Shown here piece by piece: positions 3 through 15,933 of a DNA stretch of 33,493 bases. The position numbers and the translations under genes were made by a program. The DNA comes from a virus: IMG/VR virus record IMGVR_UViG_3300033064_002647, positions 1-33,493 of that record; one strand, given 5' to 3'. The number at the start of each line of letters is the position of its first letter. Positions within the stretch are counted from its first letter, which is position 1. The notes under the pieces are model-generated. The model was not told the DNA's origin. It ran no database searches and saw nothing but the letters and a program-made list of their open reading frames with translations.

Positions 3-59
3 CGTCTAGAAAAAGACAGGGCTAAAATAGAAGCAGAAAGGGAGGACTATGAAGCATAA
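3..59 (+). CDS. C-terminal end of an upstream gene (5' truncated)
   Basis: An open frame enters from the left edge and stops with TAA at 57-59, giving 18 visible residues rich in Glu, Lys, Arg and Ala that look like the end of a charged helix or coiled coil. It overlaps the start of the ThiF-like gene by 11 bases, so the two are probably co-transcribed and translationally coupled. The ribosome-binding site of the ThiF-like gene lies inside this end. Too little is visible to assign a function. Confidence 0.5.
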   Translation, partial: RLEKDRAKIEAEREDYEA

Positions 60-699
60 TAGACAAATTGACCTCATAAACCCAAATAAACTTGAAATGT
101 CTATAGAGATAATAGGTGCTGGGGGGATAGGCTCATGGGCCACTCTAGCACTTACTAAGATGGGTTGTAAGAATATTAAAATAAGAGATCATGACAAAGT
201 AGAGATCCACAATACAGCCAGTCAATTGTTTGGAGAGAATTCTGTAGGAGAGTCTAAGGTAGCCGCTCTTACAAAATATATCCTAGACTTAACTGGAGAG
301 GCTATCTTAGTAAGTGAGTATGAGTGGAAACCAGTGGGAGTTCCCTTCATAGGGCCAATTGTTATCTCGGCAGTTGACAGTATAGAAACACGAATAGAGA
401 TCTGGAAACAGATTCTAGAAAGCCCAGGGGTAGAGCTCTATATAGACGGACGAATGGCTGGTGACTTAATAAGGATCTACTCTATTCCTCTTCATAGTGG
501 ACCTAAAGACTGGGATCCAATGATTGAGTATGCTAAGACACTTGTCCCAGTAAAGCCAGGACCATGTACAGCAAGGGCAGTCGTCTATAATACATTCGTA
601 TGTGGAGGATTTATTGCCAATCTAGTAAAGAAATATGCTAAAGAAGAAGAAGTTCCATTCGAAGTCTCGTTCGATTTAACAACACTTGAAAGAGTATAA
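49..699 (+). CDS. ThiF/MoeB/E1-like adenylyltransferase
   Basis: This 216-residue protein belongs to the ThiF/E1 superfamily, whose members use ATP to adenylate the C-terminal glycine of a ubiquitin-like or sulfur-carrier protein. A Rossmann nucleotide-binding loop (GAGGIGS) is at residues 23-29. It is followed by the family pattern D49..E52..N55...Q59, then K69 and D109. C172, in a PCTARA stretch, is a candidate active-site cysteine. The length matches a minimal E1 without extra domains. A strong GGGAGGA ribosome-binding site supports the ATG at 49. It is one of only two complete plus-strand genes here. A JAMM-family peptidase, the usual functional opposite of E1 enzymes, is encoded at 15475-15933, but no ubiquitin-like protein or E2 is visible. 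It could instead serve cofactor sulfur transfer. The family call is firm; the substrate is unknown. Confidence 0.88.
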   Translation: MKHNRQIDLINPNKLEMSIEIIGAGGIGSWATLALTKMGCKNIKIRDHDKVEIHNTASQLFGENSVGESKVAALTKYILDLTGEAILVSEYEWKPVGVPFIGPIVISAVDSIETRIEIWKQILESPGVELYIDGRMAGDLIRIYSIPLHSGPKDWDPMIEYAKTLVPVKPGPCTARAVVYNTFVCGGFIANLVKKYAKEEEVPFEVSFDLTTLERV

Positions 700-739
700 A
701 TATTAAAGAATTGAATAATCTTAAAAAGGAGGTGAAGAT

Positions 740-1030
740 ATGAAAAAAGGATATAAAAAAATGTCTCCAAAAGAGTTTATTGAGATAAAAAAATTGCTTA
801 CACTTGATCTAACAACAGGGATGGTAGTACAAATAACCAAAAGATCACCAAACACTGTTATGAAAGTAAGGAAATCAATGGATTTCGCAGAATACCAAAC
901 TCTTATTAAGGCCAAAAAGGAACAAAAAGCTCATAAACTAGGAGTTTCAGGGCTCCCAGCCAATTTAGACAACAAACTTAAAATCAGTGGAGCTATAAAG
1001 ATACTTCAAAATGTTCTAGAAAGTCTTTAA
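740..1030 (+). CDS. Small helix-turn-helix protein
   Basis: This 96-residue basic protein has a likely helix-turn-helix at about residues 25-50: a TTGMVVQITKRS segment, then NTVMKVRKS as the probable recognition helix, like the homeodomain-like HTH of small phage regulators and transposase-type repressors. The start is well supported by an AAAAAGGAGGTGAAGAT Shine-Dalgarno just upstream, among the strongest in the window. It follows the ThiF-like gene by 40 bases in the same direction. Its stop overlaps the stop of the converging minus-strand gene by 4 bases. It may regulate one of the transcription units, but its target is unknown. An opposite-strand frame covering the same bases is a shadow without a good start. 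Confidence 0.7.
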   Translation: MKKGYKKMSPKEFIEIKKLLTLDLTTGMVVQITKRSPNTVMKVRKSMDFAEYQTLIKAKKEQKAHKLGVSGLPANLDNKLKISGAIKILQNVLESL

Positions 1031-1257
1031 TTTATTCTCTTTCCTATAAGAGCAACTGAGAACTCGTATTTTTGGAGGGCGGGATTATTTAGTTCCTTTA
1101 TACTTTCCCATTCAGTCTCGGGAATATCAAGGGCTAGAGAAAACCCGCCCCCCGTTCCTTGTTTAACACTAGGAGAGTAGGCCCTGAACGTCACTGTGAC
1201 GCTATCTTCTGCTTGCTCAACGGTATCACTGGTATTTTCTTGTATTGAATCTTGCAT
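1027..1257 (-). CDS. Hypothetical protein, last gene of the minus-strand block
   Basis: This is a 76-residue acidic-to-neutral protein with no family I recognise. The N-terminal 20 residues are polar and acidic; the rest alternates short hydrophobic strands (TVTFRAYSP, GFSLALDIPE) with a likely helix, suggesting a small beta-rich fold. I prefer the ATG at 1257; a TTG at 1266 is also in frame. Neither has a clear Shine-Dalgarno, so translation may depend on coupling to the overlapping zinc-finger gene upstream, which shares 67 bases in another frame. Its stop meets the converging plus-strand HTH gene, so this marks the strand switch. Confidence 0.5.
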   Translation of the reverse strand: MQDSIQENTSDTVEQAEDSVTVTFRAYSPSVKQGTGGGFSLALDIPETEWESIKELNNPALQKYEFSVALIGKRIN

Positions 1258-1535
1258 GATGAACAATAGGCAATCATAACCATGTTGTCTTGTAGATCTA
1301 TATCAATAGTATCTACCTCACGACCACACTTGCCACATTTGCCTGTATATTTATATTCTAAAGTTACTTTTGTTACCGCTGGGACTTTCGGTATTCTTGG
1401 TTTAAGCGCCTTTTCCTGCTCAACTATGCCTTTTGGAAGAGGGTGGCCAGCCTTAGCGTGGTCATTGAGATCTTTAACCGAGTTAAACTCGACACTTCTA
1501 CCCTCACTGGAACACTTCATGCAAAGAACACTCAT
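1191..1535 (-). CDS. C2H2-type plus zinc-ribbon protein
   Basis: This 114-residue protein carries two likely zinc sites. The N-terminus has C5, C8, F17, L23, H26 and H31, which closely matches the classical C2H2 zinc-finger spacing, including the hydrophobic core positions. The second half has C67, C70, C91 and C94, a four-cysteine ribbon. A basic, proline-rich linker (residues 42-56) joins them. It is probably a nucleic-acid or protein-binding factor. It lies just downstream of tRNA-Asn. A TATAAT-like hexamer about 20 bases before the ATG could be a -10 element, but no -35 is evident. Its 3' end overlaps the next gene. Confidence 0.65.
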   Translation of the reverse strand: MSVLCMKCSSEGRSVEFNSVKDLNDHAKAGHPLPKGIVEQEKALKPRIPKVPAVTKVTLEYKYTGKCGKCGREVDTIDIDLQDNMVMIAYCSSCKIQYKKIPVIPLSKQKIASQ

Positions 1536-1566
1536 ATCATTTTGTTATTATACCCGTATCATTTTG

Positions 1567-1638
1567 CTCTGAGGAAGGGAGTCGAACCCCTAGTCTTCGC
1601 GTTAACAGCGCGCTGTATTGCCATTCTACTACCTCAGA
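1567..1638 (-). tRNA. tRNA-Asn(GUU)
   Basis: The minus strand folds as a 72-nt cloverleaf: a 7-bp acceptor stem (TCTGAGG with CCTCAGA), a short GTA/TAC D-stem, an anticodon loop CTGTTAA giving GUU, a 5-nt variable loop, and a T-arm with TTCGACT loop. The first anticodon-stem pair is G-A mismatched. The CCA end is not encoded. Its 5' end overlaps the last 10 bases of the glycosyltransferase gene 1629-2660, so transcript processing must separate the two. Confidence 0.9.
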
Positions 1639-2660
1639 TCATTAAAGAATCGTTTCAATTCCTCAAACTCTTTATCATAGTTTACCATACTTTTAAAACG
1701 AATGTAAGCGTTATCTGAAATCTCTACTAGTTTGTTTACGTCACAGTACTCTAAAACCTTGTCAGCAGCCTCTAAGGGGCTTAGACCGTCTATATCAATA
1801 CAAGTTACCCCATCTTCCATCAACTTACCAGCTAATTGTCCTTTGTATTGGCTCATTTTAACTATCGGAGCTCTTCCACAAGCAAAGGCGTTATGAATTA
1901 TGTGGCCAAAACCATCTCCTCCTCTTTTAAGGTGGAAAATAAATTGAGACTCACGTATTTTCCTTGCAATATTCTCATGTCCTAGGATTGCCCCGTCTCT
2001 ATTTCCTCCCCCATAAGCTCTAAATTTCCAATCCAACTCTCTCTCCAAAGCAAGAAACATCTTTAAATCAGACTTCCTTAAGACGTTGACGAAGGAACTA
2101 ATCGTCTTCGAAACATGGGGAGCTGAGTAGCTGAAGATGTCTGTATCAAACTCTTGATGATAAAAAACTGAATGAACTGACGTTGGAAAAGGGAGCGTAG
2201 AGGCCATTAGGTTCTTAACTTTAGAATGTACTGGCCAGTTATTCCCCATCTGTTGAATTACCTTAGCGTTTTTCTGAAACTTATCTCTTAACTTTAAAAA
2301 CGGAGTAACATGAGGAGCATAGGAGGCAATAATGATGTCAAAGTCAATGTTCTTAAACTGCTCAAAAGTGACTGCCCGTTGTTCGATAGGATTTCCCTTA
2401 ACAATGTAATAACCATTTTCTTTCTCCTTAATGTTATTTAACGGCCTACTGCCATCTACTAGTTGATAGACCTCATCCCTTATACCAAGATACTGGAAAA
2501 CTGTTCCCCTGTCGTTACCGTAAGGTTCTGCTATCTTCCAGTAGCCTTCGTTAAACCAATTAACTCCTATCGGCCTGTACAACTCCCAACCTAGTCTTCG
2601 GAATAGTAACTGAAGGGACAGATAAAGATCATCGTGATGATAGTCGCAAAAAACTTTCAT
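1629..2660 (-). CDS. GT-B-type glycosyltransferase-like protein
   Basis: This 343-residue protein is probably a soluble glycosyltransferase of the GT-B fold. The C-terminal half contains a GGDGFGHIIHNAFACGRAP segment (about residues 248-266), which resembles the donor-binding region of GT4-like enzymes in which a Gly-rich loop precedes a conserved 'NAxAxGxxPI' helix. The N-terminal half alternates strands and helices and includes DFDIIIASYAPH, as expected for the first Rossmann domain. No signal peptide or membrane helix is seen. It overlaps the upstream gene by four bases (ATGA), and its stop codon lies inside the tRNA-Asn gene. Donor and acceptor sugars cannot be told. The family call is moderate because the classical E-x7-E motif is not clear. 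Confidence 0.6.
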   Translation of the reverse strand: MKVFCDYHHDDLYLSLQLLFRRLGWELYRPIGVNWFNEGYWKIAEPYGNDRGTVFQYLGIRDEVYQLVDGSRPLNNIKEKENGYYIVKGNPIEQRAVTFEQFKNIDFDIIIASYAPHVTPFLKLRDKFQKNAKVIQQMGNNWPVHSKVKNLMASTLPFPTSVHSVFYHQEFDTDIFSYSAPHVSKTISSFVNVLRKSDLKMFLALERELDWKFRAYGGGNRDGAILGHENIARKIRESQFIFHLKRGGDGFGHIIHNAFACGRAPIVKMSQYKGQLAGKLMEDGVTCIDIDGLSPLEAADKVLEYCDVNKLVEISDNAYIRFKSMVNYDKEFEELKRFFNDLR

Positions 2661-2863
2661 ATACTAATCGGTCTAATTGGGACTGCTCCCATTGCAAGTG
2701 CCTCATCACACATGGACTTAACAAGACCTCTCTTTACATCAGCCTGTAATCCACAAGCAAAGTCGTCCTCTGCAAGACGGGGGTCTTTGTTTACTGCTTG
2801 ACCCTTAATCTCTTCACAAATTACCATATTTTTAACTCGTTGGAACATGTCCATAATCTTCAA
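2657..2863 (-). CDS. Hypothetical small protein in glycan block
   Basis: This 68-residue protein has no recognised family. It has three cysteines (in MVICEE, FACGL and KSMCDEA), mixed charge and a C-terminal MGAVPIRPI tail. Three in-frame ATGs (2863, 2854, 2848) lie close together inside the 3' end of the upstream glycosyltransferase gene and the true start is uncertain. It overlaps the downstream gene by an ATGA, which supports real translation in this polycistron. Confidence 0.45.
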   Translation of the reverse strand: MKIMDMFQRVKNMVICEEIKGQAVNKDPRLAEDDFACGLQADVKRGLVKSMCDEALAMGAVPIRPISI

Positions 2864-3530
2864 ATAGTTTAATAAAATCAGGATGCATATCTTCTTTTAA
2901 ACAATCTTTAGTGTATTTAAGAAACTCGGCTGGTCTGTAATTTGGCTCTTCTCCGTGTTGTAGCATGTGGATATTCTGAGACAAGCCATCCATGTGTGTA
3001 AAAGACTCATCTTCTACCATAAAGCCTGTATTAACATTTTTCAAATCTTGAGCTATCTTGTAGAAATGATCATGTTTATCAGGAACAACGCCAAAATCCA
3101 TACGAGTCTGCCTCAATGTTTCCCATTCGACAAATAAGCAAGATGGATGAAGTCTTACTCCACCCTGGTAATATCCAATTGCCTTGAAACCTCTTTGATA
3201 GAAGTTATTCACTATACCCCAAAATTTATCATTATCGTGAATTATAAAGTCCTGCTCAGTAAACCAAACCCAATTGAGAATTGAATACTCTAAAGCCATG
3301 TTAACAGCCTTGTCTCTCCAGTCTTGATCAGCACTAGCAGGAGTACTTGTTTTGAAAATAATCCCGTCACCCATTTTGTACTTAACAAAGTCTCTGTAAT
3401 CACCATCCGTGTTCATGTCAGTGAAGATGATTATAACTTTATCAAATCTGTGACGCTGTTCTTTTATAAACTTGCGCCACAATGGATAATCTAAATGTTT
3501 TGGCCAAGCAACAATTACGTCAGGCTTCAT
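2832..3530 (-). CDS. GT-A-like glycosyltransferase, paralogue 1
   Basis: This 232-residue protein looks like a compact GT-A nucleotide-sugar transferase. An N-terminal strand-helix unit (DVIVAWPKHLDYPLWRKF) leads to the likely metal/nucleotide site WFTEQDF (E92, Q93, D94), which sits where GT2-family enzymes carry DxD. A conserved HPSCLF segment follows. The next gene (3527-4309) shares the YPxWRK, WxWFxEQDF and HPSCLF blocks in the same order, so the two arose by tandem duplication. The acceptor-side C-terminus differs, which suggests that specificity has diverged. No membrane helix is visible. The two genes overlap by four bases. Confidence 0.6.
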   Translation of the reverse strand: MKPDVIVAWPKHLDYPLWRKFIKEQRHRFDKVIIIFTDMNTDGDYRDFVKYKMGDGIIFKTSTPASADQDWRDKAVNMALEYSILNWVWFTEQDFIIHDNDKFWGIVNNFYQRGFKAIGYYQGGVRLHPSCLFVEWETLRQTRMDFGVVPDKHDHFYKIAQDLKNVNTGFMVEDESFTHMDGLSQNIHMLQHGEEPNYRPAEFLKYTKDCLKEDMHPDFIKLFEDYGHVPTS

Positions 3531-4309
3531 ATATCAAAAAACTTAACAAATTTATTGTCTTCTGGGTCAAATTGACAGTCCTCCCTCTTTTTAAGTTCTT
3601 CCTCTACTTCTAAAGAAAGCTTTATATACTCTGGACTTGAAGGCTCAACCTTCCTACTCCAGTGATTGTATGCGTAGAACATTGGAACATTACCTACACC
3701 AAAGTGCCTATCAGTAGACCAATTTTGGTACGGATATGTCATTCCACCTAAGTGACAAGCGTTCTCCCAATTCTTATAGCCCAGATCTTGAAGTTTTACG
3801 ATCTTGCCAAACTTCTCCACGTCTCTAGTAAGCATGGCAAAGTGGTCACAACCTATGATATCAGGATGTGCTCTAAAGTCTTTCCTAGTCTTCTCTAGTG
3901 TCTCCTTCTTAATAAACAGACAAGATGGATGAACGTATGGGAACTGACTAGGACTCCACCAACCTATCATGTCGGCTTCTTCCATCTGTGCCTGAACATC
4001 CATGAAGAATTTATCCCAATCGTCTACAAAAAAGTCCTGTTCAGCAAACCAAATCCAATCGGCCTCAACATGTTCCAAACAAGGAATTGTTTCTGCTTGT
4101 CGCCAATCTTCCTTACCAAAGTCAATCTCTACTGGGTCAACCCACGTTTCCTTGATTTGCTCTTTAGAAAATTCCTCTAAATCTATATATCCGTGATGTC
4201 TGGATGGATAAAGGATAATCTTATTAAATAATGGTCTGTACTTCTTAATCATCTTTCTCCAGATTGGATAATCATTATACACACAATACTGTAAAACTAT
4301 ATCTATCAT
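3527..4309 (-). CDS. GT-A-like glycosyltransferase, paralogue 2
   Basis: This is a 260-residue paralogue of the preceding gene. Shared blocks are YPIWRK (14-19), WIWFAEQDF (85-93, candidate metal-binding E90/D92) and HPSCLF further on. It is longer at the C-terminus, with aromatic-rich stretches (HLGGMTYPYQNWS, FYAYNHW) that could line an acceptor-sugar pocket. It is cytosolic by appearance. An ATGA overlap on each side places it firmly in one polycistron. The exact GT family cannot be given from sequence reading alone; the fold call rests on the acidic motif and the strand-helix pattern. Confidence 0.6.
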   Translation of the reverse strand: MIDIVLQYCVYNDYPIWRKMIKKYRPLFNKIILYPSRHHGYIDLEEFSKEQIKETWVDPVEIDFGKEDWRQAETIPCLEHVEADWIWFAEQDFFVDDWDKFFMDVQAQMEEADMIGWWSPSQFPYVHPSCLFIKKETLEKTRKDFRAHPDIIGCDHFAMLTRDVEKFGKIVKLQDLGYKNWENACHLGGMTYPYQNWSTDRHFGVGNVPMFYAYNHWSRKVEPSSPEYIKLSLEVEEELKKREDCQFDPEDNKFVKFFDI

Positions 4310-4551
4310 TTTTCCTCCTTTGTTATTATTACTATTGGTGGTTCTATTTCTGGTATAATACTGCCCTCATCAACTTCCTTAAACTTCTTGCTCTCAATGA
4401 CTATTGAAAATGCATACCTTTCCCTATCAATATTAACTCCAATAACTTTTATATCCTTGGGAAAATCTGACTTTATTTTAAAAGTTCCATTGTTTATAAA
4501 CATTTCACCCAATAATTGAGGAGCTATCAAAAATCTTTTCAATCTTCTCAT
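4306..4551 (-). CDS. Hypothetical protein between glycosyltransferases
   Basis: This is an 81-residue, probably beta-rich protein: alternating hydrophobic strands such as IKVIGVNIDRERYAFSIVIES and a final PPIVIITKEEK. The N-terminus is basic (RRLKR). No family is recognised. It overlaps both neighbours by four bases (ATGA), so its production is tied to the glycosyltransferases on either side; it might be an accessory subunit, which is inference. I checked for a ubiquitin-like C-terminal Gly-Gly and did not find one, so it is not an obvious partner for the ThiF-like protein. Confidence 0.5.
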   Translation of the reverse strand: MRRLKRFLIAPQLLGEMFINNGTFKIKSDFPKDIKVIGVNIDRERYAFSIVIESKKFKEVDEGSIIPEIEPPIVIITKEEK

Positions 4552-5531
4552 ATACGCATAACTCCTTTGTACAATTTCATTTTATGTTCTATTCTCTTGC
4601 TGTCTAACTCAGCATTAGTCACAAGATCAATTATCCCAAGCATATACTTCTCCTTAAAGTCATTAAATCCATCAACTTGGTCCATTGCTATTTGCCAAAA
4701 GGCAACTCGTGTCTCTATCTCCATCTTAGCACCAATAGTTGAAGTATCTGGGACTCTCCCTGAAAGATAACCTCCCCAGCCAGTAGACAGTGATCCTCCA
4801 TGTATCCATTTCATTGGTTCCCCATACCAATTTAAGGCCTTAGTCCTCTTGTCTTCAATCTCTGTAGGTGAAGCGTGATGTTGTGGGACATCGTGGAATC
4901 TTAATCCCATTGCCCTTAGCTGAACACATGTCCAGACAAAAGTATCCCCGTGATTAATTTCTTTGAACGTATGATCCAGATGAGGACAGTGTTCTCCTGG
5001 CTTCCATGTATGGCTGGCAAAATCAAGATCGGTTTTAAGCAAGTCATTCAATTTACAGAAGAAGAAGTTAGGCCAACAGTTTGGTCCTTTATCCCCATAT
5101 CCACTGTAATCTAAATTGTATTTCTTTTTACTTGCCTCTCCTACCTCAACTCCACAAGAGAATCTTGGAGAGCCTACCACGTCAGCTAGATCAGACTCTA
5201 TCTGTTGAAAACACTTACTTACTATGCCTGGTTCAAAAATAAAGCCATCATCTTCTAAGAGCATTACTAGATCGGTGTCAGCTATCTTCGTCATCTCTGT
5301 AATTGGCATTCCGTTACCTATTCCTCTTGGGTGATAAATTAGGTGTACCTTGGGATCTTTTATAACCCTAGCGCAAAACTCACTCGCTACTTCTACTGGT
5401 ACTCCTGAGTGATTGTTGTAATTAATGTAAAACTTGTCTACCTCGTCATACCAACGCTCTTGCCATAACTTAATCGCAAGCAGAGTAATAAATGGCTCTC
5501 CTCCTGCTGATAAGAATACTGATTTTGTCAT
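4548..5531 (-). CDS. GT2-like glycosyltransferase
   Basis: This 327-residue protein is probably a GT-A glycosyltransferase that moves a sugar from a nucleotide donor. The putative metal-binding motif is E93-D94-D95 in VMLLEDDGFIF, with GxGNGMPITEM before it, as in GT2 family enzymes. A later HxDH..E..HGDTFVW segment may form the catalytic/acceptor side. I place the start at 5531 because an AAAGGAAAT Shine-Dalgarno precedes it; a longer frame to 5594 overlaps a separate small gene. There is no membrane segment. It follows a tiny membrane protein gene by one base. Confidence 0.68.
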   Translation of the reverse strand: MTKSVFLSAGGEPFITLLAIKLWQERWYDEVDKFYINYNNHSGVPVEVASEFCARVIKDPKVHLIYHPRGIGNGMPITEMTKIADTDLVMLLEDDGFIFEPGIVSKCFQQIESDLADVVGSPRFSCGVEVGEASKKKYNLDYSGYGDKGPNCWPNFFFCKLNDLLKTDLDFASHTWKPGEHCPHLDHTFKEINHGDTFVWTCVQLRAMGLRFHDVPQHHASPTEIEDKRTKALNWYGEPMKWIHGGSLSTGWGGYLSGRVPDTSTIGAKMEIETRVAFWQIAMDQVDGFNDFKEKYMLGIIDLVTNAELDSKRIEHKMKLYKGVMRI

Positions 5532-5532
5532 A

Positions 5533-5652
5533 TTAATTTCCTTTCTTTTTGTACCAAAGCCCCCACCCAAGTTTATAATCAATAAGCGTGGCAACCATGA
5601 GAATAGTCATGCCAATACTAATTCCAAGAACCAAGGAGGTAAAGTCAATCAT
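5533..5652 (-). CDS. 39-residue single-pass membrane protein
   Basis: This short gene has an AGAGGAG Shine-Dalgarno eight bases before its ATG and an ATGA overlap with the gene upstream. The product has a hydrophobic helix from about residue 5 to 24 (LVLGISIGMTILMVATLI) and a short basic tail ending KKKGN. It would sit in the inner membrane with the Lys-rich tail probably cytoplasmic. It ends one base before the glycosyltransferase start region and could help place the cytosolic transferases at the membrane, which is inference. No family is recognised. Confidence 0.65.
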   Translation of the reverse strand: MIDFTSLVLGISIGMTILMVATLIDYKLGWGLWYKKKGN

Positions 5653-5846
5653 ATTTTAATCTCCTCTTTTTGACCAAACTCTTCATTAATGGCGTTTTTA
5701 AGGGCCGAACGCTGTTTATTGAGTTCTTGGATCTTCTTAGCGTCTTCCCTTGTGTGAGTATCATCATACACTTTATCTATAAGCATGTAAATCTTTATAT
5801 TTATAATGCCAATTTCGTCTATAAGCTCACCTATTGTTTTTTTCAT
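5649..5846 (-). CDS. Small helical protein, DUF4254-like motif
   Basis: This 65-residue, fully helical, charged protein has the pattern IGELIDEIGIxNIKIxxLIDKVxDD followed by a second helix with KKIQELNKQRSALKNAINE. This resembles the small 'IDEL...NxKIW' proteins (DUF4254-like) often found in polysaccharide clusters; the match is from memory and is weak. It is probably an antiparallel helical hairpin or a dimer. Four-base overlaps on both sides tie it to the operon. It may be an accessory or structural subunit for neighbouring sugar enzymes. Confidence 0.5.
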   Translation of the reverse strand: MKKTIGELIDEIGIINIKIYMLIDKVYDDTHTREDAKKIQELNKQRSALKNAINEEFGQKEEIKI

Positions 5847-6151
5847 ACATACCCTATCAGCTTTACATCTTCAGAAAACCCAGGATTTCCCTCAAGGAAA
5901 ATAAATCTATCAGTCTCATGAACAGTAATCCCAGAGCCCTTGGGAATAGTAAGCACCATCTTCTTCCCATTAATCTTAGAAAAAAGATTTACACAGAGAT
6001 TATCTTTGTGTATTTTAAGATAAACCTTGTGGTCATCGTCTCTCCAAAGATGCCTCCCGTAGTCTTTTCCATAAACACTACACCGACCATAAGGCCTATT
6101 GTCGCCACTAAAGCCACACCTTAAACAGAACTTGTCATTTTGTTTTTTCAT
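5843..6151 (-). CDS. Hypothetical protein with N-terminal zinc-like motif
   Basis: This 102-residue protein begins with a short metal-site-like region (C9, C12, C24 in CLRCGFSGDNRPYGRCSV), which could bind zinc with a further ligand such as H34. The rest is a beta-rich domain (VYLKIHKDNLCVNLFS, MVLTIPKGSG, FIFLEG). No family is recognised. It overlaps the glycosyltransferase upstream and the helical protein downstream by four bases each. Its role in the glycan block is unknown. Confidence 0.5.
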   Translation of the reverse strand: MKKQNDKFCLRCGFSGDNRPYGRCSVYGKDYGRHLWRDDDHKVYLKIHKDNLCVNLFSKINGKKMVLTIPKGSGITVHETDRFIFLEGNPGFSEDVKLIGYV

Positions 6152-7026
6152 AAGCCATGATACTCTCTAAATCTTTTAATATATGGTTTCCACTTCGTCT
6201 CGTCCACTTCAATATCTTTCAACATCTCCCAAATCTTCATTCTTACAAGATAGGTCTTCTCGTTTGCGTTAGTCATTTCATAATACCAGGCAATTTGTCT
6301 CAAATATTCCTGCTTTGGTTGATCCCCTATATAGTCTTCATAACCCTTGTGATCATGGTCCCTATACGCCAATAAAACCGCTGGCACACTTCCTGCCCTG
6401 ATATGGTAGTAACCTAAGTCATTACTCTTCTTCCCATCTTGAGTTTTATTAAATAAACAATCAGACTTGTCTTCTTCTAACTCGTACGGCTTAACCCCAT
6501 CCCCTAGCATTTCTTCTGTAAGTTTACCAAGTGTTTCATGCTCTGGCATGTTAGAACCCCAGTCAACATCTAAATACTTCATCAACAAGTCTTTTTTAGT
6601 AGCAAACAAATAAGGACAAAACTTTGACTTCCCACCAAGCTCCTCATGAGTCTTCCCGATTGTGTCGTAAATTGAAACTACATCATAATCGGCCAACCTG
6701 CTGAAGATGTTATATATTATCCCTTTTCTATAAAACACCATGTCATTGTCTGTAAACAAAACAAGGTCTTCCTTTATCTTCGGCAATACGTTCTTAAAGG
6801 CATCATAATACCTCACACTAGAATTCTCTCTAACAATCTCATATCCAAACTCCATCTTATCCGTATCTTCTTTAGAGATCTCCCAATTACTATCTATGAA
6901 ATACACTTTGTCAAACTCGTCCTTAAGCATGTTCATGCTCTTAATAAAGTAATCAAGAATCGGTTGGTAATATTCACCACCGTATGGCTGGTATTTGTGC
7001 ATACACACTACGATTGCTTTGGTCAT
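6148..7026 (-). CDS. GT-A-like glycosyltransferase
   Basis: This 292-residue protein is probably a GT-A nucleotide-sugar transferase. LVLFTDNDMVFY at about residues 88-99 carries a D93-N94-D95 metal/nucleotide motif at the end of a strand, and an upstream strand (KVYFIDSNWEI) fits the donor-binding core. GYYHIRAG and LAYRDHDHKGYEDY later in the chain could form the acceptor side. It has no signal peptide or membrane helix. It is separated from the methyltransferase gene upstream by 19 bases and overlaps the gene downstream by four. Substrates are unknown. Confidence 0.68.
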   Translation of the reverse strand: MTKAIVVCMHKYQPYGGEYYQPILDYFIKSMNMLKDEFDKVYFIDSNWEISKEDTDKMEFGYEIVRENSSVRYYDAFKNVLPKIKEDLVLFTDNDMVFYRKGIIYNIFSRLADYDVVSIYDTIGKTHEELGGKSKFCPYLFATKKDLLMKYLDVDWGSNMPEHETLGKLTEEMLGDGVKPYELEEDKSDCLFNKTQDGKKSNDLGYYHIRAGSVPAVLLAYRDHDHKGYEDYIGDQPKQEYLRQIAWYYEMTNANEKTYLVRMKIWEMLKDIEVDETKWKPYIKRFREYHGL

Positions 7027-7045
7027 ATATATTCTAACACGCGGA

Positions 7046-7597
7046 TTACACGCAGAAAATCACGCTCATCCCTAAAAATTTAGTATCTAATAAATGTACT
7101 GCCTTATAATGCTCATTCTCTGCCAAAAACTCATCTAAAGCCTTTCTACAACCAGAATGAATAGGATCAGTACTGGCTGTATCGTGCATCATTATAACTC
7201 CACCAGTCTTAACAAACGGAGTCCATGCCTTTAACTCATTTACTGTATGTTCATATCTATTATTTGTATCAATTAAGAGAAAGTCAATTTCTTTCTTCCA
7301 AGCAACAGATGCTTCTACACTATCACCAACAATAAAAGTAACGCTTTTCTCCTTCTCAAGAACTCCCTTTCCCTCTGGGTATAGTCTCAGATGAGCGTCG
7401 CTAACATAATCAATACTCCAAAGGTGGCCATTTGTTTTATTAGCAACTGCCGTCAATGCATATGTGGATTGACCAGCTCCTAGTTCAACCAGCACCTTGG
7501 CGTTCATTTGAACAGGAATATTATAGAGGGATAGTAAATACTCATTTATATCCGTATCTCTTCCAGCCATTTGTAGAATATCATTTCGATTAAACAC
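7046..7597 (-). CDS. Class I SAM-dependent methyltransferase
   Basis: This 183-residue protein has the Rossmann methyltransferase signature. Motif I is VELGAGQS (residues 37-44), an acidic strand end (WSIDYVSD) would hold the SAM ribose, and IDFLLIDTNNRYEHT followed by TGGVIMMHD marks the motif IV/post-IV region typical of the Methyltransf_24 type found in glycan and cephalosporin-hydroxylase-like clusters. It could methylate a sugar. It overlaps the epimerase gene by eight bases. A second, unrelated-length methyltransferase lies at 8926-9660. Confidence 0.82.
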   Translation of the reverse strand: MFNRNDILQMAGRDTDINEYLLSLYNIPVQMNAKVLVELGAGQSTYALTAVANKTNGHLWSIDYVSDAHLRLYPEGKGVLEKEKSVTFIVGDSVEASVAWKKEIDFLLIDTNNRYEHTVNELKAWTPFVKTGGVIMMHDTASTDPIHSGCRKALDEFLAENEHYKAVHLLDTKFLGMSVIFCV

Positions 7598-8525
7598 CTG
7601 TCCACCAATAAATATAATCTTTTATAGCTTCCTCTACTGGTATCTCCGCAACAAAGCCCAATTTCTCTTCTGCCTTGCTTACATCTGAGTGGTGCTTCAG
7701 CGTTTCATGAGACAACATCGGCACATTAATTATCTTTGACTTAGAATTAGTCTTCTCAATAACCATCTCAGCCATATCTCTTATAAAGGTTAGTTGCTTG
7801 TTTGCAATATTGAATATCTCAAAACCATCATACTTTTCTTTGGCTAGTATCGTAGCCCTGACAGCATCATCTACATGGGTATAGTCAGCAGAACATGGAA
7901 TAAAACCATTTACCATATCAAAACGACCATGAACTTTAAGATCCTCTCCTTTTAACGCCTGTTCCGTAAAAATTGAAAGTACAAGATCTGGGTTACTTCT
8001 TGCTCCTGCAACGTGATGATATCTTAAAACGACACAAGGAACATCAAAATACTTGTTATACATTTCACATAACTTCTCAGAACCCCACTTAGCTACGGCA
8101 TACGGACCCTCTGGTTGTGGTAATTTATCCTCTCTCCACGGACATTCTTGTTTACCGTACACTTTATTCGAAGAAGCGAACACTACGAGAGGTTTTGGAT
8201 TGCACAATCTAGCCGCTTCTAATACGTTAGCAGTACCAGCTAGATCAACCATTGCATAGTCGTGTGGGGCTGTTAAAGCTAGTCTATGACTAGGTAGAGC
8301 CGCAAGATGATAAATTACATCAACTCCATCCTTAATTGTCTCCTTAAGTTTCTCAAAATCAAGAACATCTCCAACCACAAAATCAAACTTCCCCCCAGCT
8401 TCCATTAAATTGATGATACTTCTTTTCCCTCTAACAAGACTGTCGTAGACAACAACGTCTTCTTTTTCTAAACGAGATGTTAAATGAGAGCCGATAAAGC
8501 CAGCTCCTCCTGTAATTACGTTCAT
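7590..8525 (-). CDS. NAD-dependent nucleotide-sugar epimerase/dehydratase (SDR)
   Basis: This 311-residue extended short-chain dehydrogenase/reductase has an N-terminal GGAGFIGS NAD-binding loop (6-13), GDVLDF around residue 52, and LAALPS near 75. The catalytic set is S118/S119 with Y142 and K146 (YAVAK). The length and ordering match GalE/WbpP-like UDP-sugar 4-epimerases or dTDP-sugar dehydratases. It would make a modified nucleotide sugar for the nearby transferases. It overlaps the acetyltransferase gene by four bases. The family is firm; the exact sugar is not. Confidence 0.93.
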   Translation of the reverse strand: MNVITGGAGFIGSHLTSRLEKEDVVVYDSLVRGKRSIINLMEAGGKFDFVVGDVLDFEKLKETIKDGVDVIYHLAALPSHRLALTAPHDYAMVDLAGTANVLEAARLCNPKPLVVFASSNKVYGKQECPWREDKLPQPEGPYAVAKWGSEKLCEMYNKYFDVPCVVLRYHHVAGARSNPDLVLSIFTEQALKGEDLKVHGRFDMVNGFIPCSADYTHVDDAVRATILAKEKYDGFEIFNIANKQLTFIRDMAEMVIEKTNSKSKIINVPMLSHETLKHHSDVSKAEEKLGFVAEIPVEEAIKDYIYWWTGV

Positions 8526-8929
8526 ATTTTTCCTATCTTTTTAATAAATTTAGCTGGAACTCCACCCCAAACCTCACATGGCGGAACATCTTTACATACA
8601 ACTGCCCCAGCCGCTACTACCGCATGTTCTCCGACAGTAACTCCTGGGAGGATTATACACCTTGTACAAAGCCAAGCGCCTTCCTTAATAATAACTGGGA
8701 GGATCTTACTTACTCTTTTTCTGTCATCCCTAAAAAGATCATAGTTATGGCTACCAGTAAGAATCATTATATCATGGCCAGAGAAGGCGTCTTTCTCTAT
8801 TGTTACTTTTCCTTGGCAATCAATCAAACCACTTATACCGACACCATCAGCAATCTCAGGCTTAACACCTAATTCGTAATTTATAAACCTAGCTCCACAT
8901 GGATGTCCTTTATATTCTCCTACGCTCAT
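8522..8929 (-). CDS. Hexapeptide-repeat acetyltransferase
   Basis: This 135-residue left-handed beta-helix protein resembles the maltose/galactoside O-acetyltransferase (LbetaH) family. Isoleucine-rich hexapeptide turns (VGISGLIDCQGKVTIEKDAF; VIIKEGAWLCTRCIILPGVTVGEHAVVAAGAVV) run through it. The GSHNYD segment carries the likely catalytic histidine, and PPCEVWGGVPAKFI is the classic C-terminal signature. It uses acetyl-CoA and probably acetylates a sugar. An AGGGAG site precedes the ATG. It sits between the epimerase and a methyltransferase with ATGA overlaps on both sides, as in O-antigen clusters. Confidence 0.9.
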   Translation of the reverse strand: MSVGEYKGHPCGARFINYELGVKPEIADGVGISGLIDCQGKVTIEKDAFSGHDIMILTGSHNYDLFRDDRKRVSKILPVIIKEGAWLCTRCIILPGVTVGEHAVVAAGAVVCKDVPPCEVWGGVPAKFIKKIGKI

Positions 8930-9660
8930 ACATCTCCCTTTAAATATTTATAACTCATAAAGTTAGAATCATATTTCTGTAGAAGAGTAAAGCCACGAGG
9001 AGTTCTAAAATTAACTACGGTCAATTGGTGGTCTCTTATTAGATTACCAAAAAATGGACGAAAATCACCAAACGGCCAATGATCCATCCCATGCAATGTT
9101 TGGTTGCTCAACCCAAGATGTTCGTGTAAGTCATGAATCATTATAAACCCACCAGGGTTAACAGCACTATAAAACTTTTGTAACTCCTTAAAACGGATGT
9201 CTGGCTCGCTATCTAAGAATAAAAGGTCAAATGTTATTTTTGGTTTTAAGTGTTCATCTAATTCTACTGAACCACGATCATCTCTTGGCAAAACGAACTT
9301 TAATGAATCTGTGTGAACGACGTTAATTCTATTAATACCTAACTTACTATGTAACGCTTTCGACTTTTTAACCCACTCTTCATTTAACTCAAGAGTAGTA
9401 ACCCTGCCACTGTTTCCCGAATACGACTGGTTATTCTTATCCATAGCATAAGCCATAACCGCCGAAGACCAACCAGCATACGTTCCAGTTTCTAAGACAT
9501 TTCTAGGTTTTGCTAATCTTACAAGCCCATACAAGAATTCAAGGACTTCAACCTCTGCACTACCATCCTGAATCATCTTAAACCGTCTTAGGGAGTCACT
9601 AACTTCTGGTTGTATTTCTACTCCAGCTTTCTCACATAACTGTTCAACTATACTTTTCAT
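8926..9660 (-). CDS. Class I SAM-dependent methyltransferase (O-methyltransferase-like)
   Basis: This 244-residue protein has motif I NVLETGTYAGWSS (about 54-66), a TTLELNEEW strand for the SAM ribose, FDLLFLDSEPDIRF at the catalytic strand, and PGGFIMIHD after it. This pattern fits the caffeoyl-CoA-type/Methyltransf_24 O-methyltransferases. It probably modifies a sugar or other small molecule. An ATGA overlap links it to a Cys/His-rich mini-protein gene upstream and to the acetyltransferase downstream. It shares layout with the shorter methyltransferase at 7046-7597 but the two are not close copies. Confidence 0.85.
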   Translation of the reverse strand: MKSIVEQLCEKAGVEIQPEVSDSLRRFKMIQDGSAEVEVLEFLYGLVRLAKPRNVLETGTYAGWSSAVMAYAMDKNNQSYSGNSGRVTTLELNEEWVKKSKALHSKLGINRINVVHTDSLKFVLPRDDRGSVELDEHLKPKITFDLLFLDSEPDIRFKELQKFYSAVNPGGFIMIHDLHEHLGLSNQTLHGMDHWPFGDFRPFFGNLIRDHQLTVVNFRTPRGFTLLQKYDSNFMSYKYLKGDV

Positions 9661-9827
9661 CTACAACCTCCTTTATTATGTCCCCTACAAGCCACCTGTA
9701 GAAACCCAATTCTCCTACAACCAATCCACTCTTTGCCACACTTGCAACAATATTCTACATTACAAATATTGCATCTGTGCTTACAATGACAACAACGAGG
9801 ATGGTGATGTCTGTGATCATGAATCAT
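9657..9827 (-). CDS. 56-residue Cys/His-rich mini-protein
   Basis: This small gene has a near-perfect AAGGAGGTAAAA ribosome-binding site before the ATG and an ATGA overlap with the methyltransferase downstream. The product has 11 cysteines and eight histidines in 56 residues. It starts with a His cluster (H3, H5, H7-H9), then C12, C13, C15, C19, C22, C27, C28, C30 and C37, with C47 and C55 in a basic tail. This must be a metal-binding (probably zinc) protein, perhaps two small knuckles. It overlaps the VWA gene by 11 bases. No family is recognised. Confidence 0.75.
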   Translation of the reverse strand: MIHDHRHHHPRCCHCKHRCNICNVEYCCKCGKEWIGCRRIGFLQVACRGHNKGGCR

Positions 9828-10437
9828 TTTTACCTCCTTGAAAATAACTTTTTGTACTTAAGTCAGCACTGGCAGCATATGTCTCGGCAGAACGCATCGT
9901 AGAGGCAAAAACCTGTTTCGTTCCCCCTCTAGTCGCTTCCCAGTCCATAACATTTCCCCTATGAAAGCCTAAATTAGAAGCAACCCCCCACGAATCTTGG
10001 TTTGCTCCCATATAAACAAATGTCCAGTTATCTTTCTTTTGCAACTTCTCAATAAGACTTCTTAAGCAACGCTCATCATGTTTCCTAGAGGAGTTCTCCT
10101 CACCATCGGTCATTATTACTACTATTGCTTTTTGATTGGATTTAACCTTCTTAGCCATCTTCTCTACTGTTTCAACAACAGCGTCGTAGAGAGGAGTCAT
10201 AGCATTCGGTTGGTATCCCTTTTTAGTAAGCTTCCTCACTTCCTTAACATCAACCATTGAATAAGGAATTCTAATTCCATTTGAGTCGAATTTCGTTAAG
10301 GTAAGATAGGACTTTGTTTTCTGCTTCTTCAGGCCATTAACGTACTCATTGAAACCACTAATCACTGAGTCTCTAATACCTTCCATTGAACCCGACTCAT
10401 CAAGAACAAAGTTTATAATTGTATCTGCTTTTTTCAT
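9817..10437 (-). CDS. von Willebrand factor A (VWA) domain protein
   Basis: This 206-residue protein is a single VWA domain. The metal-ion-dependent adhesion site is intact: D13-x-S15-x-S17 (DESGS), a threonine in NAMTPLYDA near the middle, and an aspartate in VVIMTDGEEN. Such domains bind protein partners through a divalent cation. I place the start at 10437, where GGAGGG precedes it and the ATG overlaps the upstream stop (ATGA); a frame to 10455 reads back into the upstream gene. It sits between glycosyltransferases and a metal-binding mini-protein. Stand-alone VWA proteins in phages have no settled role. Confidence 0.88.
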   Translation of the reverse strand: MKKADTIINFVLDESGSMEGIRDSVISGFNEYVNGLKKQKTKSYLTLTKFDSNGIRIPYSMVDVKEVRKLTKKGYQPNAMTPLYDAVVETVEKMAKKVKSNQKAIVVIMTDGEENSSRKHDERCLRSLIEKLQKKDNWTFVYMGANQDSWGVASNLGFHRGNVMDWEATRGGTKQVFASTMRSAETYAASADLSTKSYFQGGKNDS

Positions 10438-11435
10438 TTTAAAAATTCCCTCCATTGATTCTTAATATTTTCTTTTCCAAATAACTCAATCGCTCTCTTT
10501 CTTCCTGCCTCTCCCCATTGACGGGCTAGATCTTTATCTTCTAATAACCTGTGAATTGTTGCCCTTAACTCGTTCATTTCGTCCGAATAAAATCCGCTTT
10601 TCTCTGTCTCAATAATCTCTGGTATCTCAAAGAACTTAAACCTCTCCACCTTAAGATTTTCAGCCATCTGTCTCCCAATGGAAACAACTGGAATACCTGT
10701 CATCATGGCCTCTATTAACATCAAAGTATAAGGTGCTGGCCAAGTCCCTGTATAAACATAAACACGGTTGTCTCTCAACTCCTTCTTCGTCGTTTCGTAC
10801 GGTATCTCTCCACCATTGAGTGGGCCAAGATCGTCATTCCCCGAGCCGAAAATTGTAGCAGGAAACCCCTCAACCATCTGCATCACATGATCGTAATGAC
10901 AACACAGTCTTCTTCCCTTAAGCGTTTGAGTGAAATTGACAACTCTTTGTTTGTCCCCATTCCAACCACAAAATTCTTCTGGATCTTTGTAAAACCTAAT
11001 CGTAGCGTCTTCGCCTAAATAATCTGGAATATACTTCTCCATCGGAGAATATCTTACAATCTGCATTCCTTCGTATCTCATTTTTCGAATCATGTTCTCT
11101 ACAACCTTCGTAGACTGGCCTATTGACCTCCAAATTACCCTCTTGTGCTTCATTCTATCCCAATTCTCTGAAATCCATTCTGGAGTGTGCATGGCGATAA
11201 TACAATCAAACGGCTCAATAAGCTCTGCTGGAAGTCTCGTCTTTGGGTGGTGTCTAGTAAGTTCTTCAAATTCCTTAAAATGTTTAGCTCCCTTAATTCC
11301 TGGCCTCGGAAGCGACTTGTTGCCCCGTGGATCTGCATAAGCATCGTTCGAAAACACATCATGGCCCAACTCTGTCAACAAACTAACCTCATCATATTCT
11401 AATACGCAATGTGTACTTAGATAGTGTATTTTCAT
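10434..11435 (-). CDS. GT-B glycosyltransferase (GT4-like)
   Basis: This 333-residue protein has the GT-B layout: an N-terminal domain with FDCIIAMHTPEWI and a C-terminal domain with APYTLMLIEAMMTGIPVVSIG, the family's donor-binding signature in which the E of LIEAM is the second Glu of the E-x7-E motif. The typical C-terminal helix (ARQWGEAGRKRAIELFG) follows. It is cytosolic, with no signal. Four-base overlaps join it to the GT4 enzyme upstream and the VWA gene downstream. The donor is a nucleotide sugar of unknown identity. Confidence 0.82.
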   Translation of the reverse strand: MKIHYLSTHCVLEYDEVSLLTELGHDVFSNDAYADPRGNKSLPRPGIKGAKHFKEFEELTRHHPKTRLPAELIEPFDCIIAMHTPEWISENWDRMKHKRVIWRSIGQSTKVVENMIRKMRYEGMQIVRYSPMEKYIPDYLGEDATIRFYKDPEEFCGWNGDKQRVVNFTQTLKGRRLCCHYDHVMQMVEGFPATIFGSGNDDLGPLNGGEIPYETTKKELRDNRVYVYTGTWPAPYTLMLIEAMMTGIPVVSIGRQMAENLKVERFKFFEIPEIIETEKSGFYSDEMNELRATIHRLLEDKDLARQWGEAGRKRAIELFGKENIKNQWREFLK

Positions 11436-12559
11436 ATAGTCTTCTGTATCTCCTCTAGTCGTTTTTTCATTAAATTACCTACTGCTTTGTAAGACAATTT
11501 ATCCTTAACCATTTTCTTTGCGTTAGTCCCTATTCTACCACCATCTCCGCTATTATTAAAGACCCTGCGCATCTTCCTCTTAAGCTCATCTATATTAACC
11601 TCTGCCCAGTTCTGGTCTTTAGAGTACCAAGGAGCAAATCCCATATTAAAAACTCCCGTCTTCTCCCAACCAACTAAATGAGCTGTATGACCATCTTCAA
11701 ACCATTCATGAACTCCACCTATATTAGTAGAGATTACTGGATTGCCGACTGAGGCTGCTTCAGCTTGAGGAACACCCCAACCCTCTCCTCTATGGGCAGA
11801 AACAAAACAGTCCCCAGTTGAATGGAGACGTAAAACATCTTCTTTTGAAAGAAAGTCAAAACAAAGTAAAACCCTTGGAAAGCTTGTTAGTCCTGATTTT
11901 CTCTTCCATCTTTTAATATCATCACGGATAACATCTTTCTCTTTTTTATCAAATCCGAATCTATAGACCTTCAACAACAGAGTCACATCAGTTACTCCTT
12001 GGAACTCTTCCCAATAAGCCTTTAACAGCGCTCTTGGGTTCTTTCTCTCTATCCATTGAAAAATAGAATAAAACAAATAACCTTCATGGTGAGGAACATT
12101 AAACGGTCTTTGGGCATCAATGTTCGTACTTAAAGCCTGAGGAAAAACATGAATCGGGACTTTAACACCAGACTTTATAAAGCTTTGTTTATGAAATTCT
12201 CCGCCAGTCCATATCTCATCCATTAAGTTACAATTCCAAGCCCAAGTCTTCGACAACCCGTCTGTTTCCCAGAAAAGATGTCCTATGTGATATTTACAAG
12301 GTTCAAGGAATTTCAAATAACCATCCGAAGGTACGTGGACAATCTTTATATCGTAAGGCATTGATCTACCCTCTGACTTCTTAGCTATTTCAAAAGACTT
12401 TCCAAAACCCTTCTTACTGGCAGAATATACTACCCTCTCCGTTGTTACCTCCACCCCAGCTTCTACTAAAGCACGAATCGTGTTTCTATTGGCCTCACCG
12501 TAACCAGTGAAGTCTGACCAAGGACCAACATATTTACACGATACTTTTTTTCCTAGCAT
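11432..12559 (-). CDS. GT4-family glycosyltransferase
   Basis: This 375-residue protein is a clear group 1/GT4 enzyme. The N-terminus has a Gly-rich acceptor loop (WSDFTGYGEANRN) and the C-terminal domain carries HRGEGWGVPQAEAASVGNPVISTNIGG, where E and E' of the E-x7-E motif and the conserved GxPV turn are visible. The FYSIFQWIERKNPRALLKAY stretch is typical of the start of the donor domain. It probably transfers a sugar from a nucleotide donor to a growing glycan. It overlaps the gene upstream by seven bases and the next transferase by four. Confidence 0.9.
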   Translation of the reverse strand: MLGKKVSCKYVGPWSDFTGYGEANRNTIRALVEAGVEVTTERVVYSASKKGFGKSFEIAKKSEGRSMPYDIKIVHVPSDGYLKFLEPCKYHIGHLFWETDGLSKTWAWNCNLMDEIWTGGEFHKQSFIKSGVKVPIHVFPQALSTNIDAQRPFNVPHHEGYLFYSIFQWIERKNPRALLKAYWEEFQGVTDVTLLLKVYRFGFDKKEKDVIRDDIKRWKRKSGLTSFPRVLLCFDFLSKEDVLRLHSTGDCFVSAHRGEGWGVPQAEAASVGNPVISTNIGGVHEWFEDGHTAHLVGWEKTGVFNMGFAPWYSKDQNWAEVNIDELKRKMRRVFNNSGDGGRIGTNAKKMVKDKLSYKAVGNLMKKRLEEIQKTI

Positions 12560-13333: not shown

Positions 13334-13346
13334 GAACCCATTGTAC

Positions 13347-14003: not shown

Positions 14004-14015
14004 ATTACTCCAATT

Positions 14016-14795: not shown

Positions 14796-15031
14796 TTTTT
14801 CTCCTGACCAGAGAGGTAGCTAACCAATTTCTTTAATGATGACATTTTTTGTTTTTCTGTCTTATCCTTGAGACCTACGACCTTCCAGTTATATTTCTCT
14901 GCCTCTTTAGATTTAAAAAAGAACGCAGCAAACTGTTGAGCACTCTCACCACTAATTCCTAAACGAATTCCCTTTGGATATTTAAAAATTATTTCTTGTA
15001 CATCTATGTATTTAGGGTTGTTCATTTTCAT
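14792..15031 (-). CDS. Hypothetical protein, 79 residues
   Basis: This basic protein has an alpha-beta appearance (VQEIIFKYPKGIRLGISGESAQQFAAFFF) and a Lys-rich C-terminus. No family is recognised and no catalytic motif is visible. It overlaps the gene upstream by 20 bases and the one downstream by four. It belongs to the transcription unit that may start at the TTGACA promoter near 15220. Confidence 0.5.
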   Translation of the reverse strand: MKMNNPKYIDVQEIIFKYPKGIRLGISGESAQQFAAFFFKSKEAEKYNWKVVGLKDKTEKQKMSSLKKLVSYLSGQEKK

Positions 15032-15191
15032 GATTGCTGATATTCATTTGACGATCAAGCTCCTCAGATGAAATCATTCCTATTCTATATTTGAGATTTA
15101 AATATCTCCAATTATTATCTACGTAAAGAGTTTTATCGAGAATCTCTATCTCTTCAATAATGTCAGAATCGTTTATTGTAGGATCATTCAT
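15012..15191 (-). CDS. 59-residue acidic helical protein
   Basis: This small gene has an open frame bounded upstream by stops, so the ATG at 15191 is the only likely early start. The product is acidic (MNDPTINDSDIIEEIEILDK), then has LYVDNNWRYLNLKYRIG and SSEELDRQMN. No Shine-Dalgarno is visible. The ATG directly follows the -10-like element of a TTGACA promoter, so that promoter would start transcription inside the gene; an upstream transcript may be used instead. Function is unknown. Confidence 0.45.
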   Translation of the reverse strand: MNDPTINDSDIIEEIEILDKTLYVDNNWRYLNLKYRIGMISSEELDRQMNISNHENEQP

Positions 15192-15220
15192 AGCTTATCA
15201 CTTATTATTTTCACTGTCAA
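15192..15220 (-). promoter_or_regulatory. Candidate sigma70-like promoter P2
   Basis: On the minus strand a perfect TTGACA (15215-15220) is followed, after 17 bases, by TAAGCT (15192-15197). Three other sites in non-coding or gene-end positions have the same TTGACA, 17-bp spacing and a related -10. It sits in a 59-base gap after the end of the gene at 15251. Its -10 abuts the ATG at 15191, so the transcript start would fall within that small gene. Confidence 0.4.
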
Positions 15221-15250
15221 CGGGCTGTTTAAAAACTCTAATAAATATTC

Positions 15251-15478
15251 TCATATATGCCAACTCTGCTGATTTTTGATTCTTTCTCTTTCCTTGTCCC
15301 TTGCATCTTCCATCTTTTTCTCACAACGATGACAAGGATTATTACCACCATAGGAATAAAATGTTTTGTCCCTCTTATTGGGTCTTTCTTTCTTAGGAAC
15401 GTCATAGGTTACTCCGCAAAGATCATTAGTCCGACAGGCAACCTCATAACCACACAGATCACATGTAAACTTAATCAT
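15251..15478 (-). CDS. Zinc-binding small protein
   Basis: This 75-residue protein has C6 and C9 (TCDLCG), then C15 and C21, and C49 and C52 (PCHRCEKK), enough for one or two zinc sites. The C-terminus is a charged helix. It overlaps the JAMM-protease gene by four bases (ATGA), so the two are translated together and could act together. Because the upstream gene is a JAMM-type peptidase, a link to protein tagging or cleavage is possible but is only inferred from position. Confidence 0.6.
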   Translation of the reverse strand: MIKFTCDLCGYEVACRTNDLCGVTYDVPKKERPNKRDKTFYSYGGNNPCHRCEKKMEDARDKERERIKNQQSWHI

Positions 15479-15933
15479 AATTCCTCTGATAACATTAATA
15501 TTTGTTCAACCCATGTTGGAATACAGTCTGAAATATCACACTCATGGAAATGGATTTCTCTTTTGGGGACTATTTTGTATCTCTCTAGTTTCCTTTTCCG
15601 TTCTTCCCAGTCTAAGAGCGGTTCTAGATGATACCAGTACCTTCCTCTAAATATCCCACCACCAACCCTACATATTACTTCCATGAAAATTGGGTAAGGG
15701 GAATGAGCGTATGTCCATGCTTTTAAGGACATCCTGTCTTCTTTAGAAAGATAATTCATTCCAGGAGGATGAGTATGAGCCATTAGTCTAATAAGGCCTG
15801 GGAATCGCTCGTGATGGGCTCTTATATACTCTTCTGGAAACGCCATCTTGGAATACTTACCGAAAGTCGTATGTAAGACAATGTTATCCTGTCCGACAAC
15901 CATTGCTACTTTTTTGAACTTCCTTAATGGCAT
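15475..15933 (-). CDS. JAMM/JAB-family metalloprotease (Mov34/MPN-like)
   Basis: This 152-residue protein has an intact JAMM zinc motif: H53-x-H55-P, seven residues, S63-x-x-D66, the spacing of active deubiquitinase- and RadC/JAB-like peptidases. Acidic residues E34/E35 upstream could provide the general base. Such enzymes cleave an isopeptide or peptide bond next to a ubiquitin-like protein, or trim its C-terminus. I place the start at 15933 (AAAGG site); the frame running on to 16020 only reads through tRNA-Gly. It has no NlpC/P60 domain and is far from the tail genes, unlike the lambda tail protein K. A ThiF/E1-like gene at 49-699 is the natural partner. It overlaps a zinc protein gene downstream. 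Confidence 0.86.
   Translation of the reverse strand: MPLRKFKKVAMVVGQDNIVLHTTFGKYSKMAFPEEYIRAHHERFPGLIRLMAHTHPPGMNYLSKEDRMSLKAWTYAHSPYPIFMEVICRVGGGIFRGRYWYHLEPLLDWEERKRKLERYKIVPKREIHFHECDISDCIPTWVEQILMLSEEL

Follow-up and report, generated by a model that had tools for sequence, protein, structure and literature searches.

A phage contig encoding an E1-like enzyme and a small JAMM-type protein probably carries part of a phage-borne ubiquitin-like conjugation system

Bacterial ubiquitin-like conjugation is best known from anti-phage defence, namely from the cyclic-oligonucleotide-based anti-phage signalling system (CBASS) and Bil. Bacterial operons of types 6a–6e, which carry a ubiquitin-like protein (Ubl), an E2, a JAB protease and an E1, have already been described, as has a Ubl/JAB pair in phage tail modules (PMC1779556). 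Here we analysed a stretch of viral DNA (hereafter the window), which is exactly as long as its source record, IMG/VR IMGVR_UViG_3300033064_002647 (33,493 bases), and which encodes an E1-like enzyme at one end and a small JAMM-type protein in the middle. The original prediction took this pair as a pointer to ubiquitin-like conjugation, and in this central point our results agree with it. The results showed that 73 of 81 related loci with complete flanks carry a Ubl, an E2-like protein, a JAMM protease and an E1 side by side, and a portion of such a ubiquitin-like conjugation system, encoded by a phage, is probably what the window holds. If this is true, the existence of a full phage-encoded set would mean that phages too use protein tagging, and it would assign a role to conserved genes of abundant gut phages that have so far lacked an explanation and allow their targets to be tested directly.

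Like the bacterial operons 6a–6e (PMC1779556) and the Planctomycetota and Myxococcota loci found in this work, the phage sets bring four activities together in one operon, with an E1 that lacks a rhodanese domain. Further likenesses to the described operons are a JAB gene beside that of E1 where the two are not fused, a Ubl with a terminal Gly and an E2 with a conserved His and Cys (PMC1779556). However, the sets studied here are phage-encoded, all their parts are separate genes and their E1 is a small single-domain protein; in addition, a second, small JAMM is present in the window lineage, whereas the Planctomycetota and Myxococcota loci are without one. CBASS Cap2/Cap3 (PMC10097602, PMC11153139) likewise combines the activities of an E1, an E2 and a JAMM, but Cap2 is an E2–E1 fusion there, whereas the 216-amino-acid E1 of the window stands alone and the E2-like protein of its relatives is separate. 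BilABCD (PMC11354881) is similar in having Ubl, E2, JAMM and E1 as four genes, with a JAMM expected to mature the Ubl; it differs in that BilA carries a pair of Ubl domains and BilD a pair of adenylation domains together with a Cys domain, against one Ubl domain in most phage members and one adenylation domain in the window E1, which is short in comparison with BilD. The tail-assembly proteins TAPI/TAPK (PMC1779556) are likewise a phage-encoded Ubl and JAMM, but they come without E1 or E2, their JAB is fused to NlpC/P60 and they lie in the tail block. A catalytic Cys within a single adenylation domain is shared with the non-canonical E1 systems UBA5–UFC1 and ATG7–ATG10 (for ATG7 and UBA5, PMC12355090, PMC11354881). 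Because the window and its relatives lack those features that define CBASS, Bil, PRTRC or tail JAB systems and were tested here, and because no paper in the open-access literature was found to name the phage set (crAss-like or other) as a conjugation pathway, although a description elsewhere is possible, we regard the phage sets as a new variant of the bacterial ubiquitin-like conjugation systems.

The E1 gene of the window starts with ATG and is preceded by GGAGG at positions 41–45. The glycine loop and the residues D47/D49, N55, Q59, K70 and D110 are present as originally described. The candidate catalytic Cys also stood up, being kept in 118 of 119 sequences of the family, but its number had to be corrected from C172 to C173 (Met = 1). 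Within the same alignment D49, N55, K70, D110, R115 and R135 are conserved in all 119 sequences and R5 in 116. The N-x-x-R-Q motif of MoeB and ThiF usually has an Arg before the Gln; this Arg is missing throughout the family, in which position 58 is mainly Gly. The protein contains one ThiF stretch only, which scores 64.5 bits with the Pfam family ThiF (PF00899; cut-off 28.1), and it matches the E1-type PDB chains UBA5, MccB, TcdA, Uba4 and MoeB. Judged from its sequence, the product is an adenylating enzyme of the E1/ThiF superfamily. It remains far below the NCBIfam equivalog cut-offs for ThiF (59.6 against 159 bits) and MoeB (23.1 against 376.55 bits), does not reach that for PRTRC_ThiF (31.1 against 144.75 bits) and widely misses those for TcdA and 6A-MBL cap2_3; the PADLOC E1–E2 models match it weakly (37.8 bits).

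A tblastn search showed the E1 family in Flavobacterium phages, Dulem virus 41 and the crAss-like phage cr128_1, in all of which a Prok-JAB-like JAMM gene lies directly upstream of E1 and is itself preceded by a gene with an HSH...CxG motif. Scans of viral contigs with the single window E1, small JAMM or tail protein gave no matches, and alignments were required: a family alignment added 67 viral loci, and another 58, including the window's own lineage, came from a second alignment. Counts were restricted to distinct loci that extend for 5 kb or more to each side of E1, of which there were 81. A JAMM was present beside E1 in 81/81 of them, a Ubl in 76/81 and an E2-like gene in 76/81, a tally that is descriptive rather than an independent test because some of the counted loci had also supplied sequences for the component profiles. 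An open reading frame (ORF) with the JAMM motif stops at the E1 start or runs into it in 100/113 loci, compared with 3/654 distant ORFs that have the motif. The possibility that homologous phages carry only one of the two genes was therefore not borne out for E1 and a JAMM as such, but in most of these phages the JAMM is of the canonical and not of the small type.

The loci fall into three lineages. Lineage A, which is near the Planctomycetota loci, carries a Ubl, an E2-like protein with Cys-rich repeats, a JAMM and E1. Lineage B (crAss-like phages, Flavobacterium phages and others) carries a Ubl precursor, E2-like protein, JAMM and E1 amid replication genes, and lineage C, which contains the window, has the same components in varying order. 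In the cultured gut phage crAss001 the set corresponds to gp79 (Ubl), gp78 (E2-like), gp77 (JAMM) and gp76 (E1), which are annotated as hypothetical proteins (gp78–79), 'metalloprotease' (gp77) and 'thiamine biosynthesis protein' (gp76); locus L058 is its IMG/VR copy, and the set is seen also in L074. Direct comparison of lineages A and B by hhalign gave low probability for the Ubls, and low probability also for the E2s and JAMMs, which nevertheless align over their motifs. The profiles of all three lineages recognise the bacterial proteins, and since those built from the Ubls, E2s and JAMMs of lineage C match the Planctomycetota and Myxococcota operons, the lineages are tied together. An early E1 tree without lineage C, in which the window sat on a very long branch, was superseded by a later tree that includes this lineage. 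Two side observations concern these loci. L172, a contig of a Spirochaetia metagenome-assembled genome, bears a lineage B set and is probably phage sequence binned with a bacterium. In several lineage A loci E1 is followed, within a few kb, by a gene for an AAA ATPase (L005:12899–14470, L010:3800–5359, L029:13292–14833), which might assist the system by unfolding tagged proteins.

The lineage B set is located between the primase and uracil-DNA glycosylase genes, and this position is the same even in distant phages. A placement of this kind suggests a core role and speaks against the idea that the phages carry the set as a CBASS- or Bil-like cassette for defence against competitors, outside the phage's own programme. 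Known bacterial ubiquitin-like systems are often defensive (PMC10097602, PMC11153139, PMC11354881), and the weak PADLOC match of the window E1 would agree with such a cassette; no CD-NTase or effector was noticed nearby, although no systematic search for one was made. On this evidence we consider a defence cassette quite unlikely.

The Ubl of the relatives ends in a conserved Gly, as KSG, EG or GG, and then continues into an extension. In lineage B the first ~75–95 residues end in K-x-S-G, with Ser-Gly invariant in 28/28 proteins, and the extension that follows KSG ranges from 1 to ~217 residues; the L030 and L064 genes encode the domain plus 1–2 residues only. A model showed a confident beta-grasp domain at residues 1–86, with confidence falling at 87–90, the KSG site, and its structural matches included the TINCR UBL, UBX, SUMO1, ISG15, NEDD8 and ubiquitin, so that in the model the relatives' Ubl has a clear ubiquitin fold. 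As an observation apart, the L064 Ubl (L064:5680–6883) stops two residues past KSG and is followed immediately by an endonuclease-like ORF, and the C-terminal extension seen in other Ubls has a counterpart in a separate ORF further on, an arrangement that an insertion into the gene at the cleavage site might have left behind.

In lineage C the Ubls have GG at or within two residues of the C terminus, and two of them exceed Pfam cut-offs (ThiS or Ub-Mut7C). Their match to ThiS, together with the place of the E1 in the ThiF superfamily and the described link of ThiS/MoaD, JAB and E1 operons to sulfur metabolism (PMC1779556), would fit an E1/Ubl pair acting as a ThiS/ThiF- or MoaD/MoeB-like sulfur carrier for phage nucleotide, tRNA or cofactor modification, with the JAMM only freeing the Ubl tail. 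We consider this unlikely. The E2-like gene counted above is something that sulfur carriers do not need, and the ThiF and MoeB equivalog cut-offs are far missed; moreover, no sulfurtransferase was noticed near the sets, though this was not searched for systematically.

The E2-like proteins of lineage B have the invariant residues Y89, S92-H93, C109-x-G111 and E145, and those of lineages A and C have HPH/HPx...CxG; a conserved His and Cys have likewise been described for bacterial E2 domains (PMC1779556). In a model of an E2-like protein (predicted local distance difference test score 83.8) a helix is followed by strands, an active-site loop and further helices, the succession of elements found in UBC proteins. 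When the model was looked at a second time with VIA, the top matches listed were mostly UEV, UBE2H, RWD, Atg10, UFC1 and UBE2R2. Judged by motifs and model, the E2 assignment is likely, not proven; the likeness to UFC1 and Atg10 is distant, and direct descent is not claimed. Lineage A E2-like proteins (L005:7874–9172, L016:7810–9060, L020:6978–8297, L029:7843–9051) bear long C-terminal runs of CxxC repeats; these may be RING- or zinc-ribbon-like, in which case one protein could combine the functions of an E2 and an E3.

By analogy with known ubiquitin-like pathways, including BilA/BilC (PMC11354881), the JAMM protease would trim the Ubl precursor to its C-terminal Gly. The E1 would then adenylate this Gly and take the Ubl on Cys173, the E2-like protein would accept it on the invariant Cys that follows the HxH/HP motif and attach it to target amines, and JAMM activity would take the tag off again. 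The small JAMM may act as a second processing or deconjugating factor. It is our guess, from the lineage B site between primase and uracil-DNA glycosylase, that host or phage proteins are modified early in infection. We lean towards the fuller proposal that a complete and active Ubl/E1/E2/JAMM pathway, conserved in numerous phages (crAss001 and further crAss-like phages among them), tags proteins during infection and that the second, small JAMM edits the tag in the window lineage.

The small JAMM gene was found with the motif originally proposed, and phmmer detected homologues in three related phage loci, L075, L076 and L077 (E 1e-18 to 4e-14), in which, as in the window protein, every residue of the HxHx(7)SxxD zinc motif is kept (4/4). 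Since a similar zinc pattern occurs in 3/654 unrelated ORFs of at least 120 amino acids, the JAMM motif by itself is not decisive. A tblastn search of phage records with the small JAMM matched nothing, and hhalign of the operon JAMMs against it gave low probability. When 2.9 million viral contigs were scanned with a three-member alignment, the small JAMM was found only in the L075, L076 and L077 records, in a scan that used short patterns and in which two of the three records found were part of the query. These loci also hold the closest E1 relatives of the window (46%, 47% and 40% identity, respectively), and the four E1s form a clade (support 94/90). In L076 the small JAMM gene ends 22 bp before E1 on the same strand, directly upstream; in L075 the distance upstream is 2.4 kb, within one and the same run of genes, and the space is taken up by genes for an AAA ATPase and a DUF2201 metallopeptidase/VWA protein (L075:7190–10648); and in L077 it lies 4.4 kb downstream. 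Because these three relatives also encode a canonical JAMM, the small JAMM is a second one, and that of the window is probably an accessory enzyme and not the canonical operon JAMM. The operon JAMMs have an invariant ExSG-type N-terminal Glu; the acidic residue at position 35, which is E, E, E and D in the four small members, may take its role as far as sequence can tell.

Several results weigh against these readings. For the E2-like protein, Foldseek comparison of the model with the PDB gave no match at E ≤ 0.001, and the Z values from VIA were at most 6.3, a weak likeness to UBC/RWD. For the small JAMM, the Pfam Prok-JAB score of 12.5 bits (E 0.14) is below the cut-off of 25, no ExSG-type N-terminal Glu motif precedes H53, and the related locus L078 is without this gene. 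A head-tail protein of the window matches the L075–L078 records and 0/11 others tested, and the co-occurrence of small JAMM and E1 may be due partly to shared phage ancestry. Finally, profiles of lineages A, B and C detected neither a Ubl nor an E2 nor a canonical JAMM in the window; the original prediction had likewise seen no Ubl or E2.

There is a serious, though on balance lesser, chance that the E1 belongs to a conjugation set while the small JAMM is an unrelated RadC-like phage metalloprotein that shares only the lineage. As originally noted, the two genes of the window are on opposite strands and about 15 kb apart, and in L077 the distance is 4.4 kb; the head-tail protein is likewise shared by the four phages; and the relatives have a separate canonical JAMM, while one small JAMM homologue weakly matches RadC-JAB (E 0.09). 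The arrangements in L076 (same strand) and L075 (same gene run) speak against such independence, as does the finding that, among the contigs scanned, the small JAMM occurs in E1-bearing phages only. It is very improbable, by comparison, that the small JAMM is a tail-assembly JAB peptidase, the kind of phage JAMM described in PMC1779556. The 152-amino-acid protein stands alone at 15.5 kb, outside the virion block at 22.6–33.5 kb and without fusion to NlpC/P60, as the original prediction had it; it has no tail PHROG match, and its homologues are near an E1 gene.

The position of the E1 gene bears on the parts missing from the window. It is the first gene from the left end, and the contig begins 48 bp upstream of its start, inside an overlapping ORF whose stop at 57–59 lies three codons inside the E1 gene (Table 1). 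The E1 operon was therefore probably interrupted by the contig end, and the truncated ORF is possibly another of its components. Since Ubl, E2 and JAMM genes are absent to the right of E1 and the contig stops so close to its start, they are expected on the left, and we predict that the Ubl, E2 and canonical JAMM genes belonging to the window are probably located immediately left of position 1, off the contig rather than hidden in it. The gene order of L078 (Ubl, coiled-coil protein, E2, JAMM, E1) provides a model for the expected parts. An exact-sequence search found no viral contig overlapping the left edge. Two ORFs that had been put forward as Ubl candidates, 4306–4551 and 5843–6151, were rejected, as neither matches a Ubl profile nor ends in Gly; the only match of the first is phrog_20473 (function unknown), and the second has no matches at all.

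Table 1. Positions of the E1-like and small JAMM genes and of other features of the window
Feature	Position	Strand	Evidence or remark
Upstream ORF cut by the contig end; last 18 codons RLEKDRAKIEAEREDYEA, then stop	3..59	+	Sequence; overlaps the E1 start
E1-like (ThiF-fold) adenylating enzyme, 216 amino acids, candidate catalytic Cys173	49..699	+	Pfam, PDB matches, conservation
tRNA-Asn	1566–1638		Follows the glycosyltransferase block
VWA-domain protein, possible system neighbour (weak link)	9817..10455	-	VWA, 29.5 bits
Small JAMM-type protein (second JAMM), 152 amino acids, H53-x-H55-x(7)-S63-x(2)-D66, acidic residue 35	15475..15933	-	Motif, homologues
tRNA-Trp	15950–16022		Directly upstream of the small JAMM gene
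Transglycosylase-like virion protein	26251–27051		Best PHROG match of ten virion-block proteins scanned

The genes of the window are largely on the minus strand, with small genes and the tRNA-Trp gene in its middle. Glycosyltransferases and related enzymes form a block at about 1.6–12.6 kb (1629–12559), and the block is common to this phage and L078, as shown by strong matches of three of its proteins (E 1e-126 to 1e-74). The VWA protein of the window matches L077:8608–9636, which is near the E1 gene of that phage (E 1e-13).

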